IMG/VR virus record: IMGVR_UViG_3300009071_000020
Location: 1-40,546 of that record
DNA length: 40,546 nucleotides
Origin: a virus
Strand: one strand, 5' to 3'
Part shown: positions 12,390 to 15,626 of the stretch, piece by piece
How positions within the stretch are numbered: the first letter of the stretch is position 1
Layout of the letters: every line of letters begins with the position of its first letter
The notes under the pieces: model-generated
The model's database searches: none
Seen by the model: the letters and a program-made list of their open reading frames with translations, nothing else
Told to the model about the DNA's origin: nothing
Program-made: the position numbers and the translations under genes

Positions 12390-13742
12390 ATGGAAAAATT
12401 TATAGGTACTGAAACCCCATCTGAATTCATTAAACATAACTTGGTAGTAGGAATTCTTGCCAACAATCGTATCAAAGACCAAATAGCTGACGGATACTTG
12501 AAAAACCTAACTGAATTTTATACTCAGGAATTTTTCCTAGGAGGACTAACAGTAATATACGGAGAAAATCCAGAAGACTTGATGGCTCAAACAAGCGAAT
12601 TAGGAAAATCACATCTAGTTGCATTAAAGGTCGGTAATATCACTACATCTTTCCTAGACACTCTCATTAACTTTTTTGAAAGGTTTTATGATGATGAAGT
12701 TTTAATTGGTCACATCTTAGACAGGGGAGATAGCTATTATGAGATACACCCGCAATTCTTCCTAATAGATATTAAATGGTGGGAAAGTGTTGGAAAACCA
12801 ATGTTTGGTATTCGTAGACACAACACTGAGTGGGAAGCTACTATTCCCGAAAGAAGCAATGACAATTGGCATGACGATTACACTCCTAAATGGATTAAAA
12901 ATGGATCAACAAAAAGAACATATACCTCCAAAGAGTATGGCTGGAACATTATATCTCTTGCATTAGATAGTGGCAAAAAAGTAGGGGTATGGCAAAAGTA
13001 TATGCGCGACAGTAAAAAATATCTTTATCCCGAAGTCGAAGAAGCATATGCAGGAAACATTAATGAAGTTCTTAGATTGTTAGATACATCAAAGTTTTTT
13101 TGCTCAAATACCGAAGACATTCATGTTAGTGGAAACATTGTTGCAGATACAGTAATATGTACCGCAGGTGGACCATCGCCAATTCTACATGCGTTTGCTT
13201 ATAACATGAAATCTGGAGGAAACTTAGTAGTAGTAGATGTTAGTGAGCTTGCATTAAATATTATGCAAGATATGTTTGCTACATGGGATGGCAGAGATTA
13301 CCATAGTTGGCTAGAAGAATATAGAAAAAACTCTTCAGCAATTCGTGGTCGTATGATAGCATTTGAAAGAGTGGAAAAGCAAAGTAAATGGATGGACGAA
13401 ATTCCAGGTTTTGAAGAGTGGTATAATGAAGTTTGGCCGCATATCAATAAACAGTTCATTAAACAAAGTATTTTAGATGTTGACCAATTCACAAAACGCA
13501 TTGATAGTTTTTTCCAACCTGATAATATAGTAGTAGTGCATACCAGTAATATTTTCCATTATTTGCCAACTTCATTGTTTTACAACTATAATATAAGATG
13601 GCATTTGTTTTGGAAACTAAAAAATTATGTAACGAGAAAACAAGCTACTGTTGAAGGTCTAAAAGTTATTCAGAGAATACTGTTTAATGATCATCATAGA
13701 AAGATAATGGAGATTTTACCATGGTACAAGAAGATAGACTAG
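12390..13742 (+). CDS. Unknown 450-aa protein, Rossmann-like C-terminal half
   Basis: One of only two clear plus-strand genes. AGGAG lies 8 bases before the ATG. The N-terminal half has a YDDEVLIGHILDRGDSYYEI region and many aromatic residues. The C-terminal half contains DTVICTAGGPSPILHAFAYN then GGNLVVVDVS, which looks like a Rossmann nucleotide- or SAM-binding fold, possibly methyltransferase-like. A WLEEYRKN...GFEEWYNEVWP helical part follows. No family could be named with confidence. It overlaps the next gene by 22 bases, so its product probably works with the Asp/Asn-hydroxylase-like protein. A glycosyltransferase or methyltransferase role is conceivable but unproven. Confidence 0.78.
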   Translation: MEKFIGTETPSEFIKHNLVVGILANNRIKDQIADGYLKNLTEFYTQEFFLGGLTVIYGENPEDLMAQTSELGKSHLVALKVGNITTSFLDTLINFFERFYDDEVLIGHILDRGDSYYEIHPQFFLIDIKWWESVGKPMFGIRRHNTEWEATIPERSNDNWHDDYTPKWIKNGSTKRTYTSKEYGWNIISLALDSGKKVGVWQKYMRDSKKYLYPEVEEAYAGNINEVLRLLDTSKFFCSNTEDIHVSGNIVADTVICTAGGPSPILHAFAYNMKSGGNLVVVDVSELALNIMQDMFATWDGRDYHSWLEEYRKNSSAIRGRMIAFERVEKQSKWMDEIPGFEEWYNEVWPHINKQFIKQSILDVDQFTKRIDSFFQPDNIVVVHTSNIFHYLPTSLFYNYNIRWHLFWKLKNYVTRKQATVEGLKVIQRILFNDHHRKIMEILPWYKKID

Positions 13743-14470
13743 CAAAAGTTTTAGATTTCATACAAGAATGCAAGCAACATAAACACTACGCATATATTGA
13801 GTCGCCGCCAGAAGCGTATAGTTATTGGAAAGAAATAAGACAAACACGACAGTTATATTTTAAATGGATCATGAAACACAGTAATTGTCCCAGTTTACGT
13901 TTGAGCATTGATATACCACACCGAGAAATACTAGCAGAAGCAGAAAATGCAAACGAATACTTCGTAAAGCATCGTGGAAATAATCATCCTGGCTGGGAGA
14001 GTATGACATTGCATGGCCAAGGAATACATTATACCGACAACATAAAACAATATCCAGATGCGCCACAAGAATATAATTGGACTGAATTAACAAAATATTG
14101 TCCTATAACAACTGAGTGGTTCAAAGATGTGTGGCCTAATTCAGGCAATATGCAACGTGTTAGATTTATGATGCTGCGTCCTGGAGGTTGGATTACACCA
14201 CATCAAGATTTAGATCGTCGAGAAATTAGTGCATTTAATATCGCTCTCAGCAATCCAGAAGGATGTGAATTTGCAATGGAAGATGCAAATATTATTCCTT
14301 GGAAACCAGGAGATGTTAGAGGGATTGATGTTGGGAGAAAGCACTGCGTATACAACGGAAGCAATCAGGATCGCATACATATGATTGTTCATGACAACTG
14401 GAGTCCAAACAAATATGACCTCGTTTGTCAAGCATATGATGACTTGTTAATAGAGAATAACACTTTGTAA
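13721..14470 (+). CDS. Aspartyl/asparaginyl beta-hydroxylase-like 2OG oxygenase
   Basis: A 249-residue protein with the hallmark region of this family: RPGGWITPHQDLDRR (HxD), NIALSNPEGCEFAMED, WKPGDVRGIDVGRKHCVYNGS (distal His) and QDRIHMIVHDNW (2-oxoglutarate-binding Arg). Such enzymes hydroxylate Asp/Asn side chains or small substrates using Fe(II), O2 and 2-oxoglutarate. It overlaps the preceding plus-strand gene by 22 bases. Its stop is two bases before the predicted 3' end of the minus-strand tmRNA, so transcription converges there. Family call good, substrate unknown. Confidence 0.85.
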   Translation: MVQEDRLAKVLDFIQECKQHKHYAYIESPPEAYSYWKEIRQTRQLYFKWIMKHSNCPSLRLSIDIPHREILAEAENANEYFVKHRGNNHPGWESMTLHGQGIHYTDNIKQYPDAPQEYNWTELTKYCPITTEWFKDVWPNSGNMQRVRFMMLRPGGWITPHQDLDRREISAFNIALSNPEGCEFAMEDANIIPWKPGDVRGIDVGRKHCVYNGSNQDRIHMIVHDNWSPNKYDLVCQAYDDLLIENNTL

Positions 14471-14471
14471 T

Positions 14472-14647
14472 GTGCGACTATTCTGTTGCTAGGTCAGTCG
14501 CCAACCCCCACGTGCTTAAATTAAGCCGCTAATGCCATTTCTGGCGCTTTATTTGCGTTTGCAATTAAAAAGTTTGTTCGCGGTAACGGCGCTTACATCC
14601 CGGTAACTCCACTCTTCTATCCTGCCTGTCGATCCTATTTCGACCCC
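14472..14647 (-). ncRNA. ssrA: tmRNA, coding piece (permuted two-piece ssrA)
   Basis: The minus strand from 14647 reads GGGGTCGAAATAGGATCGAC, matching the conserved tmRNA 5' end and D-arm region. A resume codon GCA (14562-14560) opens a 13-codon tag, ANANKAPEMALAA, ended by TAA (14523-14521). The ALAA end is the classical protease-recognition end of ssrA tags. A GCGACT/AGTCGC helix (14474-14501) closes the 3' part. The 5' heptamer GGGGTCG pairs with CGACTCC of the acceptor piece at 14922-14916, with G-U as the third pair, the alanine identity element. The 3' boundary is approximate. tmRNA rescues stalled ribosomes and tags the nascent protein. Confidence 0.93.
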
Positions 14648-14659
14648 ATCATAAACACA

Positions 14660-14893
14660 CTATTCAAACCAAAGTAGGAAATCCATACTTCCTGTAATAT
14701 TATATAATACGATTAGTATCATACAAAACCACAGTAGCCAAAATAACCAAAAGCCTAAAAATCTGTACACCTTTTCCATAGGCAAATACTTTTCTAGAAG
14801 TGTAGTGATATCCCACACATATCTAAATTGTAGGAACCAACAAAACCATCTTACGTATTTGTTAGGTGTATTTTCTTTTGTTATCTTAGTCAT
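14660..14893 (-). CDS. 77-aa membrane protein ORF inside the tmRNA intervening segment
   Basis: The reading frame starts with ATG at 14893, behind AGGGA. It ends with TAG 12 bases before the tmRNA coding piece, and starts 18 bases after the CCA end of the acceptor piece. The product is very rich in Trp and Phe, with a soluble N-terminal half and one strong hydrophobic helix (about 46-66, including FWLFWLLWFCMILIVL). No family recognised. It fills the segment that is normally removed when a permuted pre-tmRNA is processed. It is either a real gene transcribed with the tmRNA or a chance open frame; length, ribosome-binding site and phage-like composition favour a real gene. Confidence 0.6.
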   Translation of the reverse strand: MTKITKENTPNKYVRWFCWFLQFRYVWDITTLLEKYLPMEKVYRFLGFWLFWLLWFCMILIVLYNITGSMDFLLWFE

Positions 14894-14911
14894 TATTCCC
14901 TAATGTGTTTA

Positions 14912-14970
14912 TGGTGGAGTCGCTGGGTACCGCCCCCAGGTCCAGTTCAGTCGTCAAATTGCTTCAACGT
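14912..14970 (-). ncRNA. ssrA: tmRNA, acceptor piece (permuted two-piece ssrA)
   Basis: The minus strand carries a T-arm CTGGG-(GGCGGTA)-CCCAG (14939-14923), the acceptor strand CGACTCC (14922-14916), discriminator A and an encoded CCA ending at 14912. The acceptor strand pairs with all seven 5' bases of the coding piece, including a G3-U70 pair. The acceptor piece precedes the coding piece in the transcript, the circularly permuted order known from Alphaproteobacteria. The 5' end is set approximately from the promoter at 14979-15009. Confidence 0.88.
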
Positions 14971-14978
14971 TACAATAC

Positions 14979-15009
14979 TATTTATAACATATGTATTCAG
15001 AGTTGTCAA
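14979..15009 (-). promoter_or_regulatory. Dual sigma70/late promoter of the tmRNA
   Basis: Minus strand TTGACA (15004-15009), a 17-base spacer, then TATAAA embedded in a perfect late box TATAAATA (14986-14979). Both sigma70 and T4-type late polymerase could use it. Transcripts would begin just before the acceptor piece. Confidence 0.78.
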
Positions 15010-15017
15010 GTATTAAA

Positions 15018-15044
15018 TAAAAAAAGGGAGCATTAAGCTCCCCT
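15018..15044 (-). terminator. Rho-independent terminator of the outer-membrane protein gene
   Basis: Minus strand GGGAGC/GCTCCC-type stem (15026-15042) with a short loop, followed by seven T residues. It lies about 27 bases after the stop at 15071 and separates this gene from the tmRNA promoter. Confidence 0.85.
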
Positions 15045-15070
15045 TTAATAATAACAATGTTATTGTTAGA

Positions 15071-15463
15071 TTAGAATGCGAATGATGCTGTAAGTGTAAT
15101 CTCACCACGTTCTTCTGCTTCTAAGTCATATGATGTCACTGCTTCGATTGTAAGATCGTCACGTAGTGCATATGAACCACCAAACTCTAGTACTGGAAGA
15201 TGATCGAATTCGTCATCCATTGTAAAATCATTTGTGTTATCCCATACTGACAATTTAGTGCCTGTTGTTAGCTCTAGGCCGTCAACCTGTGGTACCACAA
15301 ATGTTAGCTCTGGGTTGATTGTGATAATTGATGTATCAGCATCTACTTTACGTTCTGCTTTTACTTCTGTTTCTAGTGAGAAACCATTACCCAATTGTGT
15401 TTCAGCTTGTGCTGTGCCAGCCAAAAGTGTCGCTACAACTGTAGCTGCGAAAATATTTTTCAT
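15071..15463 (-). CDS. Small outer-membrane beta-barrel-like protein
   Basis: A 130-residue protein with a clear Sec signal peptide, MKNIFAATVVATLLAGTAQA (cleavage after AQA). Amphipathic beta strands follow (SLETEVKAERKV, SIITINPELTFVVPQ, ELTTGTKLSVW, LTIEAVTSYDL). It ends ITLTASFAF, a C-terminal Phe of the kind recognised by the BAM outer-membrane assembly machinery. About eight strands would fit a small barrel. AAGGAT precedes the ATG. The gene is isolated between two terminators. A phage-encoded outer-membrane protein could alter the cell surface, for example to block superinfection; this is inference. A periplasmic beta protein is the alternative. Confidence 0.8.
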   Translation of the reverse strand: MKNIFAATVVATLLAGTAQAETQLGNGFSLETEVKAERKVDADTSIITINPELTFVVPQVDGLELTTGTKLSVWDNTNDFTMDDEFDHLPVLEFGGSYALRDDLTIEAVTSYDLEAEERGEITLTASFAF

Positions 15464-15483
15464 TTTTGTAAATCCTTATTAAT

Positions 15484-15512
15484 AATGAAAACCGGCGCAA
15501 ATCAACGCCGGT
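15484..15512 (-). terminator. Rho-independent terminator after the tRNA-Pro gene
   Basis: Minus strand ACCGGCG/CGCCGGT stem with an 8-base loop, followed by TTTTC. It lies 115 bases downstream of tRNA-Pro and just ahead of the outer-membrane protein gene. The rest of the 15513-15626 gap is AT-rich with no gene seen. Confidence 0.75.
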
Positions 15513-15626
15513 GCGGTATTATTTAATACTATAATACTTATCACTAATATAAGCTATAATTAAAATTTTGCAAGTTATTCAGGAATTAATTATATATGTG
15601 TGTTAATTATGTTACAAAATATATTT

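Follow-up and report, generated by a model that had tools for sequence, protein, structure and literature searches.

A small protein gene in the intervening segment of a phage-encoded permuted tmRNA

The minus strand of the 40,546-nt viral contig analysed here (the window) carries a tmRNA gene in two pieces, and the 264-nt segment that separates the pieces contains an ORF of 77 codons that the original prediction of this tmRNA overlooked. The locus raises the question of whether the intervening segment (spacer) of a permuted tmRNA gene can itself be a gene and, if so, how one locus might yield both products. The comparisons described below make it likely that this is a two-piece tmRNA of a large phage, functional in appearance, that also carries a small protein gene, with the spacer serving as an exchangeable slot.

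The permuted tmRNA of the window

Positions 14471-15013 (minus strand) are identified by covariance-model matches as a complete, circularly permuted tmRNA of the alpha type (Table 1). The RF01849 model (alpha_tmRNA) aligns in full, from position 1 to 355 of 355, with 108.1 bits (gathering score 50, E 9.6e-29), and RF04321 (tmRNA_permuted) matches 14521-14973 with 95.4 bits (gathering score 47). Precisely such a two-piece gene had been predicted from the bare sequence, with a search by the Rfam alpha-tmRNA model proposed as its check, and the predicted positions are exact to the base, namely, the CCA end at 14912, the first bases of the coding piece (GGGGTCG) from 14647, a GCA resume codon at 14562-14560 and the tag stop TAA at 14523-14521; the tag is ANANKAPEMALAA, as proposed. 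The acceptor piece comes first and the coding piece second, the CCA is encoded, and the acceptor stem joins the two pieces, which form the tRNA-like domain across the spacer. A consensus scan finds three terminator-like sites in 13600-15600, compared with 1.2 expected. Convergent on the tmRNA and ending at its 3' border is an aspartyl/asparaginyl beta-hydroxylase-like gene (13721-14470, plus strand; PF05118, 56 bits).

Table 1. Features of the tmRNA locus in the window
Feature	Position	Strand	Basis
Terminator-like hairpin belonging to the upstream gene, immediately ahead of the tmRNA promoter	15022..15046	-	consensus scan
Promoter-like element TTGACA, 17 nt, TATAAATA	14979..15009	-	sequence
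tmRNA acceptor piece: P2 strand, T-arm, 3' acceptor strand, encoded CCA	14912..14973 (5' end approximate)	-	RF04321, RF01849, covariation
Intervening segment (spacer), 264 nt, presumed excised	14648..14911	-	sequence
5' arm TAAACACA of the 8-bp spacer-closing stem	14904..14911	-	sequence
3' arm TGTGTTTA of the spacer-closing stem	14652..14659	-	sequence
77-aa protein gene in the spacer (family A)	14660..14893	-	ORF, relatives, dN/dS
tmRNA coding piece, 5' end GGGGTCG at 14647	14471..14647 (3' end approximate)	-	RF01849
Tag reading frame ANANKAPEMALAA and stop TAA	14521..14562	-	sequence

The contig is indeed that of a phage, with 13 tRNAs and genes for ribonucleotide reductase, a DnaB-like helicase and tail-fibre-like proteins. 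The helicase is nearest to those of jumbo phages (PA5oct and kin, 52.8%; Phosso, 47.5%; Atu_ph07, 48.9%), and a 98.5-kb contig encodes the identical 77-aa protein in the same setting, together with a terminase. The view that a permuted tmRNA is unusual in a phage does not hold: according to the sections of PMC9004378 at hand, 53 of the 133 unique tmRNA structures from phages are two-piece forms, and marine or aquatic samples are the source of 50 of these. The novelty of a permuted phage tmRNA as such is accordingly dropped, one from phage Melnitz being already in print (PMC9004378). Capture from an alphaproteobacterial host, also part of the original prediction, is plausible, but recent capture is unsupported, with only two changes between phage and cellular labels on a tree of 217 tmRNA bodies (45 of them cellular) that was built by a quick method, takes no account of branch support and does not separate gain from loss.

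ARAGORN in linear mode reports a tmRNA neither in the window region nor in 25 related loci (L002-L026, see below), and its default circular mode gives, for the 661-nt region, a single incorrect gene that wraps round. Once the ORF is deleted by script, the program does recognise a permuted tmRNA, although it gets the tag wrong. Because linear mode reports nothing until the ORF is removed, a standard finder overlooks such genes, and counts of phage tmRNAs that rest on ARAGORN, e.g., that in the accessible text of PMC9004378, may be low.

The spacer gene and the RNA around it

The ORF lies between the arms of an 8-bp stem formed by the first letters of the spacer, TAAACACA, and its last letters, TGTGTTTATGAT. 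It starts 18 nt after the CCA, behind a weak ribosome site (AGGG, 14898-14901), and its stop ends 12 nt before the GGGG of the coding piece. A scan of viral contigs with the 77-aa protein alone identifies 30 loci, in 25 of which (L002-L026) the gene is enclosed by a permuted tmRNA according to Rfam. The other five (L027-L031, 55-57% identity) show no permuted tmRNA at the locus or in the whole records, and in L031 the gene overlaps its neighbours in the fashion of an ordinary operon. The records of L024 and L026 scored 27.9 and 27.7 bits in the genome search (cut-off 47), compared with 69.0 and 64.5 bits by cmscan, a discrepancy that we put down to search filters.

Among 11 distinct family A sequences, dN/dS is 0.023-0.187 in 44 of the 55 pairs; two pairs have no amino-acid change (dN/dS zero), and nine are undefined through synonymous saturation. 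Judged by these ratios, the family A ORF is a gene under purifying selection. AlphaFold2 predicts helices at residues 12-36, 41-67 and 70-75 (mean pLDDT 75.4, pTM 0.54) and, given these helices and the hydrophobic second half, the product is a probable small membrane protein. Searches of PHROGs, Pfam and the BFVD fold collection assign no significant named function or fold to the spacer proteins, the Pfam and PHROGs matches being sub-threshold (E 0.015-0.082). The 77-aa protein matches no Pfam family, hence no endonuclease domain, at E 0.1, and tblastn of annotated phage records finds no match for family A (E 0.1) or for the spacer families B2, C, E and F described below (E 0.01).

The RNA was compared across 11 distinct relatives, the window included, at loci that had been found via the protein and not via the RNA. 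All seven acceptor pairs form in each relative across spacers of 260-388 nt; four of the seven (CTCC and GGGG) are imposed by the search pattern, and the other three pair in 11/11. The predicted pairing of the acceptor strand with the seven 5' bases of the coding piece is thereby found in the window and in all its relatives, and so is the G-U at the third pair (11/11, GGGG and CTCC being part of the search pattern). This G-U pair is the alanine identity element. The fifth acceptor pair, U-A in the window, is G-C in all ten of the remaining relatives. The P2 helix is present, with three consensus pairs, one of which occurs in U-A, C-G and A-U forms, and two T-stem pairs as well as this one P2 pair change on both sides. 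A tag-like frame that begins with GCA and ends in AA is found in 11/11 by a script that sought only such frames and that, in L025, began at an earlier GCA. Part of the region after P2 is missing in L013 and L019.

It might be supposed that the tmRNA is a decaying relic and that selection acts on the protein gene only. The shortened or odd bodies of relatives such as L013 and L019 would fit, as would the 95.4 bits of the window next to 108-166 bits for most full-length cellular matches; such a relic is nevertheless hard to reconcile with the both-sided changes in the acceptor, T and P2 stems and with the G-U third pair and GCA frame retained in all 11 relatives, and we consider it very improbable.

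Spacer contents in phages and in cells

Viral spacers were sampled by two RNA-motif scans of viral contigs that are blind to ORFs; with the window, these yield at least 191 loci, at least 168 showing both pieces, and at least 155 distinct spacers. The pattern demands at least 6/7 acceptor pairs and at least 4/5 T-stem pairs, and therefore the stems in the survey are selected; many of the contigs are short, and a host or prophage origin is possible for some of them. The cellular control, also a sample, consists of matches to the acceptor motif in prokaryotic genomes (at least 117 loci and at least 111 distinct spacers). Among the matches listed, viral spacers have a median length of 81 nt and a maximum of 499, with 44 of at least 120 nt, whereas cellular spacers have a median of 29 nt and a maximum of 139, with one of at least 120 nt. 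A model search of 142 alphaproteobacterial genomes gives a match in 133; eight of the ten longest spans could be resolved, and their spacers (44-232 nt) contain no ORF of more than 25 codons. Long cellular spacers exist, and those examined are without a gene.

ORFs that start in the spacer and terminate there or up to 45 nt into the coding piece were compared with 400 dinucleotide shuffles (p<=0.05) for spacers of at least 90, 120 or 150 nt. Among the matches listed, a sense ORF exceeds the shuffles in 31 of 44 viral spacers of at least 120 nt (antisense, 3/44) and in 32 of 73 of at least 90 nt (antisense, 3/73), two borderline loci, L100 and L173, having changed side between runs. The stricter count of ORFs that end inside the spacer gives 22 of 57 spacers of at least 100 nt, against 3/57 antisense, again among the matches listed. 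A ribosome-site-like 4-mer, under a rule that does not count the AGGG of the window, precedes 19 of the 31 significant ORFs and one of the 13 others (among the matches listed). Of the 34 listed cargo ORFs, 21 have their stop within the spacer, and the other 13 end in the coding piece.

These stops fall into clusters: a TGA whose last base is 1 nt short of the coding piece (11/34), a UAG ending at +13 within GAAATAG (8/34), ends between +30 and +42 (5/34) and ends between -7 and -15 (10/34). The conserved border of spacer and coding piece provides a nearby stop in every frame.

Clustering of the sense ORFs of the listed loci by blastp yields family A (that of the window), B2, C, D, E and F, leaving out further clusters that represent other frames of the same loci or are joined via the shared start of the coding piece. 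Several of the families are not linked to one another by blastp. Pooled pN/pS within the spacer, calculated with L496 dropped, is 0.35 for D, 0.23 for E, 0.35 for F and 0.28 for C. B2 is hydrophobic, with dN/dS of 0.09-0.36 where defined, and in several loci follows a small overlapping frame, B1, for which support is weak because its pooled pN/pS is 0.63. The family B spacers of L057, L133, L144, L173 and L185 (159-183 nt) contain two overlapping frames, the first short and acidic and starting directly after an AAGGAG-like site behind the CCA, the second hydrophobic and beginning within the first in a different reading frame.

Families A, C and D are also found outside tmRNA genes. Family C lies in a spacer at 7 of 68 loci and family D at 18 of the 80 loci kept of 218, the remaining D loci being mostly matches to a C-terminal motif only; the slot therefore takes genes that live elsewhere too. 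In other phages the spacer holds other small genes or just a hairpin, and closely related tmRNAs can carry different cargo. For example, L172 and L119 are identical at 341 of 360 positions when the spacer is set aside, but the spacers themselves differ (132 nt with a D-like ORF vs 93 nt), and L019, with a family A gene in 267 nt, agrees at 309 of 359 positions with L079, which has a 32-nt hairpin. Within tree distances of 0.03-0.12 from L445 (C) are L024 (D and A), L013 (A), L212 (F-like) and L180 (29-nt hairpin), and in L024-L026 a D-like gene and the A gene share one 388-nt spacer. The minimum numbers of label changes on the tree described above, on which gain and loss look alike, are 6 for A, 5 for B, 4 for C, 5 for D, 2 for E and 3 for F. 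We read the spacer, from these comparisons, as a slot for small phage genes.

As an observation apart, L212 and L180 have nearly identical flanks and differ in the T-stem, in the acceptor stem (both strands together) and in the spacer, a pattern that would result if the tRNA-like domain had had its core swapped along with the cargo.

A search with the D protein of L192 (tblastn) detects four genomes of phage Melnitz, with 68.4% identity over 38 aa, under the annotated SsrA. The 142-nt Melnitz spacer contains a family D ORF that runs 42 nt into the coding piece and at which the Melnitz-1 record has no annotated CDS; a glutamine riboswitch lies downstream of the tmRNA. In seven of the eight isolates examined by one script (vB_RpoS-V10, RcXuper, DSS3P8, RcRudolph, RcSimone-Hastad, CcrBL9 and DSS3_MAL1), the spacers of 89-111 nt contain no convincing ORF, and the same applies to Phosso, a 469-kb Sinorhizobium phage with an unannotated permuted tmRNA: its 410-nt spacer was rejected as a gene slot since the longest ORF there has 57 codons and leaves the spacer partly unfilled.

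The isolates show several further features of annotation and context. The tmRNA feature is absent from the annotation of vB_RpoS-V10, RcXuper, DSS3P8, RcSimone-Hastad, CcrBL9 and Phosso (L504, L505, L506, L508, L509 and L355). In the Rhodobacter phage RcRudolph (L507, the reverse complement of 48660-50092 of OP009285.1; region 625-960), an annotated hypothetical protein, UUV44828.1, overlies the permuted tmRNA (RF04321 at 672-960 of L507, 103.6 bits). In DSS3_MAL1 and vB_RpoS-V10, a GOLLD RNA (RF02032, gathering score 150) precedes the tmRNA by a few hundred bases (L033, 895-1358, 160.5 bits; L504, 43-476, 151.4 bits).

The simplest competing account is an ordinary permuted phage tmRNA whose spacer tolerates any insert, so that the ORFs are accidental or decaying passengers. 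Many viral spacers do lack an ORF, the median being 81 nt and 13 of the 44 long ones showing no significant ORF among the matches listed, and spacers vary freely among close relatives. Passengers would not, however, be expected to give a family A dN/dS far below 1 and pN/pS below 0.4 for C, D, E and F, the excess of sense over antisense ORFs (31/44 vs 3/44 among the matches listed) or a family D frame kept between L192 and Melnitz, and this account is unlikely.

Expression of the locus and relation to known systems

The promoter-like element before the tmRNA, which is left out by a stricter promoter scan that requires the second hexamer to end in T, recurs as the same composite (TTGACA, 17 nt, TATAAATA) before the Melnitz ssrA. 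Phage-like promoters at such genes, as originally proposed, are also apparent in the survey: with spacers shorter than 16 nt or near a locus end dropped, TATAAAT, the T4-like late promoter as quoted in the accessible part of PMC9004378, occurs 30-140 nt upstream of the CCA at 95 of the 147 viral loci and at one of the 106 cellular loci among the matches listed. In the same set, a closing stem of at least 6 bp is found in 113 of 147 viral spacers, compared with 5 after shuffling, and in 24 of 106 cellular spacers, which are shorter than the viral ones.

The spacer might instead be an ordinary gene between two separately transcribed RNA pieces, with neither a common precursor nor a processing link, as could be imagined for families A, C and D, which are ordinary genes elsewhere. 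Such an arrangement is quite improbable in view of the closing stem, present in 39 of 43 viral spacers of at least 120 nt, and the rarity of TATAAAT within the spacer (2/147, viral loci only), both among the matches listed, and of the short distances at the two ends of the window ORF.

Under the preferred reading, of a two-piece tmRNA and a protein gene in one precursor, a single transcript from the promoter near 15009 would comprise the acceptor piece, the spacer and the coding piece. Permuted precursors are probably processed by RNase P and tRNase Z, according to the accessible text of PMC3985003. By analogy with cellular permuted tmRNAs, RNase P would cut at the GGGG (14647) and 3' tRNA processing would trim to the CCA (14912), so that the spacer is probably released as an mRNA by tRNA-type processing. 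The stop codon of this short mRNA would lie 12 nt ahead of the cut, and the mRNA may be translated, to the benefit of the phage. The mature RNA, with the SmpB of the host, would rescue ribosomes and tag proteins during infection; SmpB is not found in any of the eight phage records searched, several of which are fragments. Given that varied small genes occupy the slot between two pieces that form a tmRNA, the spacer may be regarded as a tolerated insertion point in an RNA gene, in which phages exchange genes for small, often hydrophobic proteins.

A further extension is doubtful. Where the cargo ORF enters the coding piece (13 of the 34 listed ORFs, and Melnitz), processing would leave a nonstop mRNA; the pre-tmRNA could then be a two-product transcript whose nonstop cargo is tagged by the tmRNA itself, the cargo level being an inverse read-out of rescue activity. 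If true, control of the cargo would resemble that of E. coli arfA. The cargo of the window would escape such control because its stop lies inside the spacer.

The observations imply that a segment of permuted tmRNAs treated as processing waste can be a conserved protein gene, and that in phages it has taken up several distinct small proteins, the surrounding RNA remaining recognisable. Melnitz is a cultured phage and allows a direct test of the slot idea. A protein gene in the intervening segment of a permuted tmRNA has no earlier description that we could find in the open literature, most subscription papers being outside that scope.

Among known systems, the alphaproteobacterial permuted two-piece tmRNA (RF01849, RF04321) shares with the window the gene order, the tRNA-like domain, the encoded CCA, the G-U third pair and a tag frame ending in LAA; it differs in the spacer, which in the window has 264 nt and a protein gene, against the median of 29 nt and maximum of 139 nt of the genome control among the matches listed. 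The tmRNA of the Methylophilales phage Melnitz is closer still in being phage-encoded, of the alpha type, behind the same promoter composite and equipped with a spacer ORF, which the accessible sections of PMC9004378 do not describe; unlike that of the window, its cargo is of family D and enters the coding piece, and a glutamine riboswitch follows. According to the portion of PMC11915505 at hand, a tRNA-Ala gene and a repetitive element occur in the intervening sequence of permuted tmRNAs, in one case each. These are alike in having extra content, but it is an RNA gene or a repeat, and that portion mentions no protein gene. The same source, as far as accessible, describes tmRNA genes with a group I intron, some carrying a homing endonuclease gene; in these, too, a tmRNA gene houses a protein gene, within a segment that the RNA loses. 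There, however, the insert is a self-splicing intron in the T-loop, whereas in the window it is the spacer of a permuted gene; the protein encoded there has no Pfam match, and no intron family of Rfam reaches its gathering score in the window, which speaks against a group I intron around the ORF. Finally, the Carsonella smpB coding sequence overlaps ssrA (PMC4131195, accessible text), and the mRNA of E. coli arfA is processed to lose its stop (PMC8012679, accessible text). Both resemble spacers of the Melnitz type, by overlap with the tmRNA gene or by a stop-less mRNA; on the evidence of those texts, their frames lie outside a tmRNA precursor, whereas the window ORF, stop codon included, lies inside the spacer.
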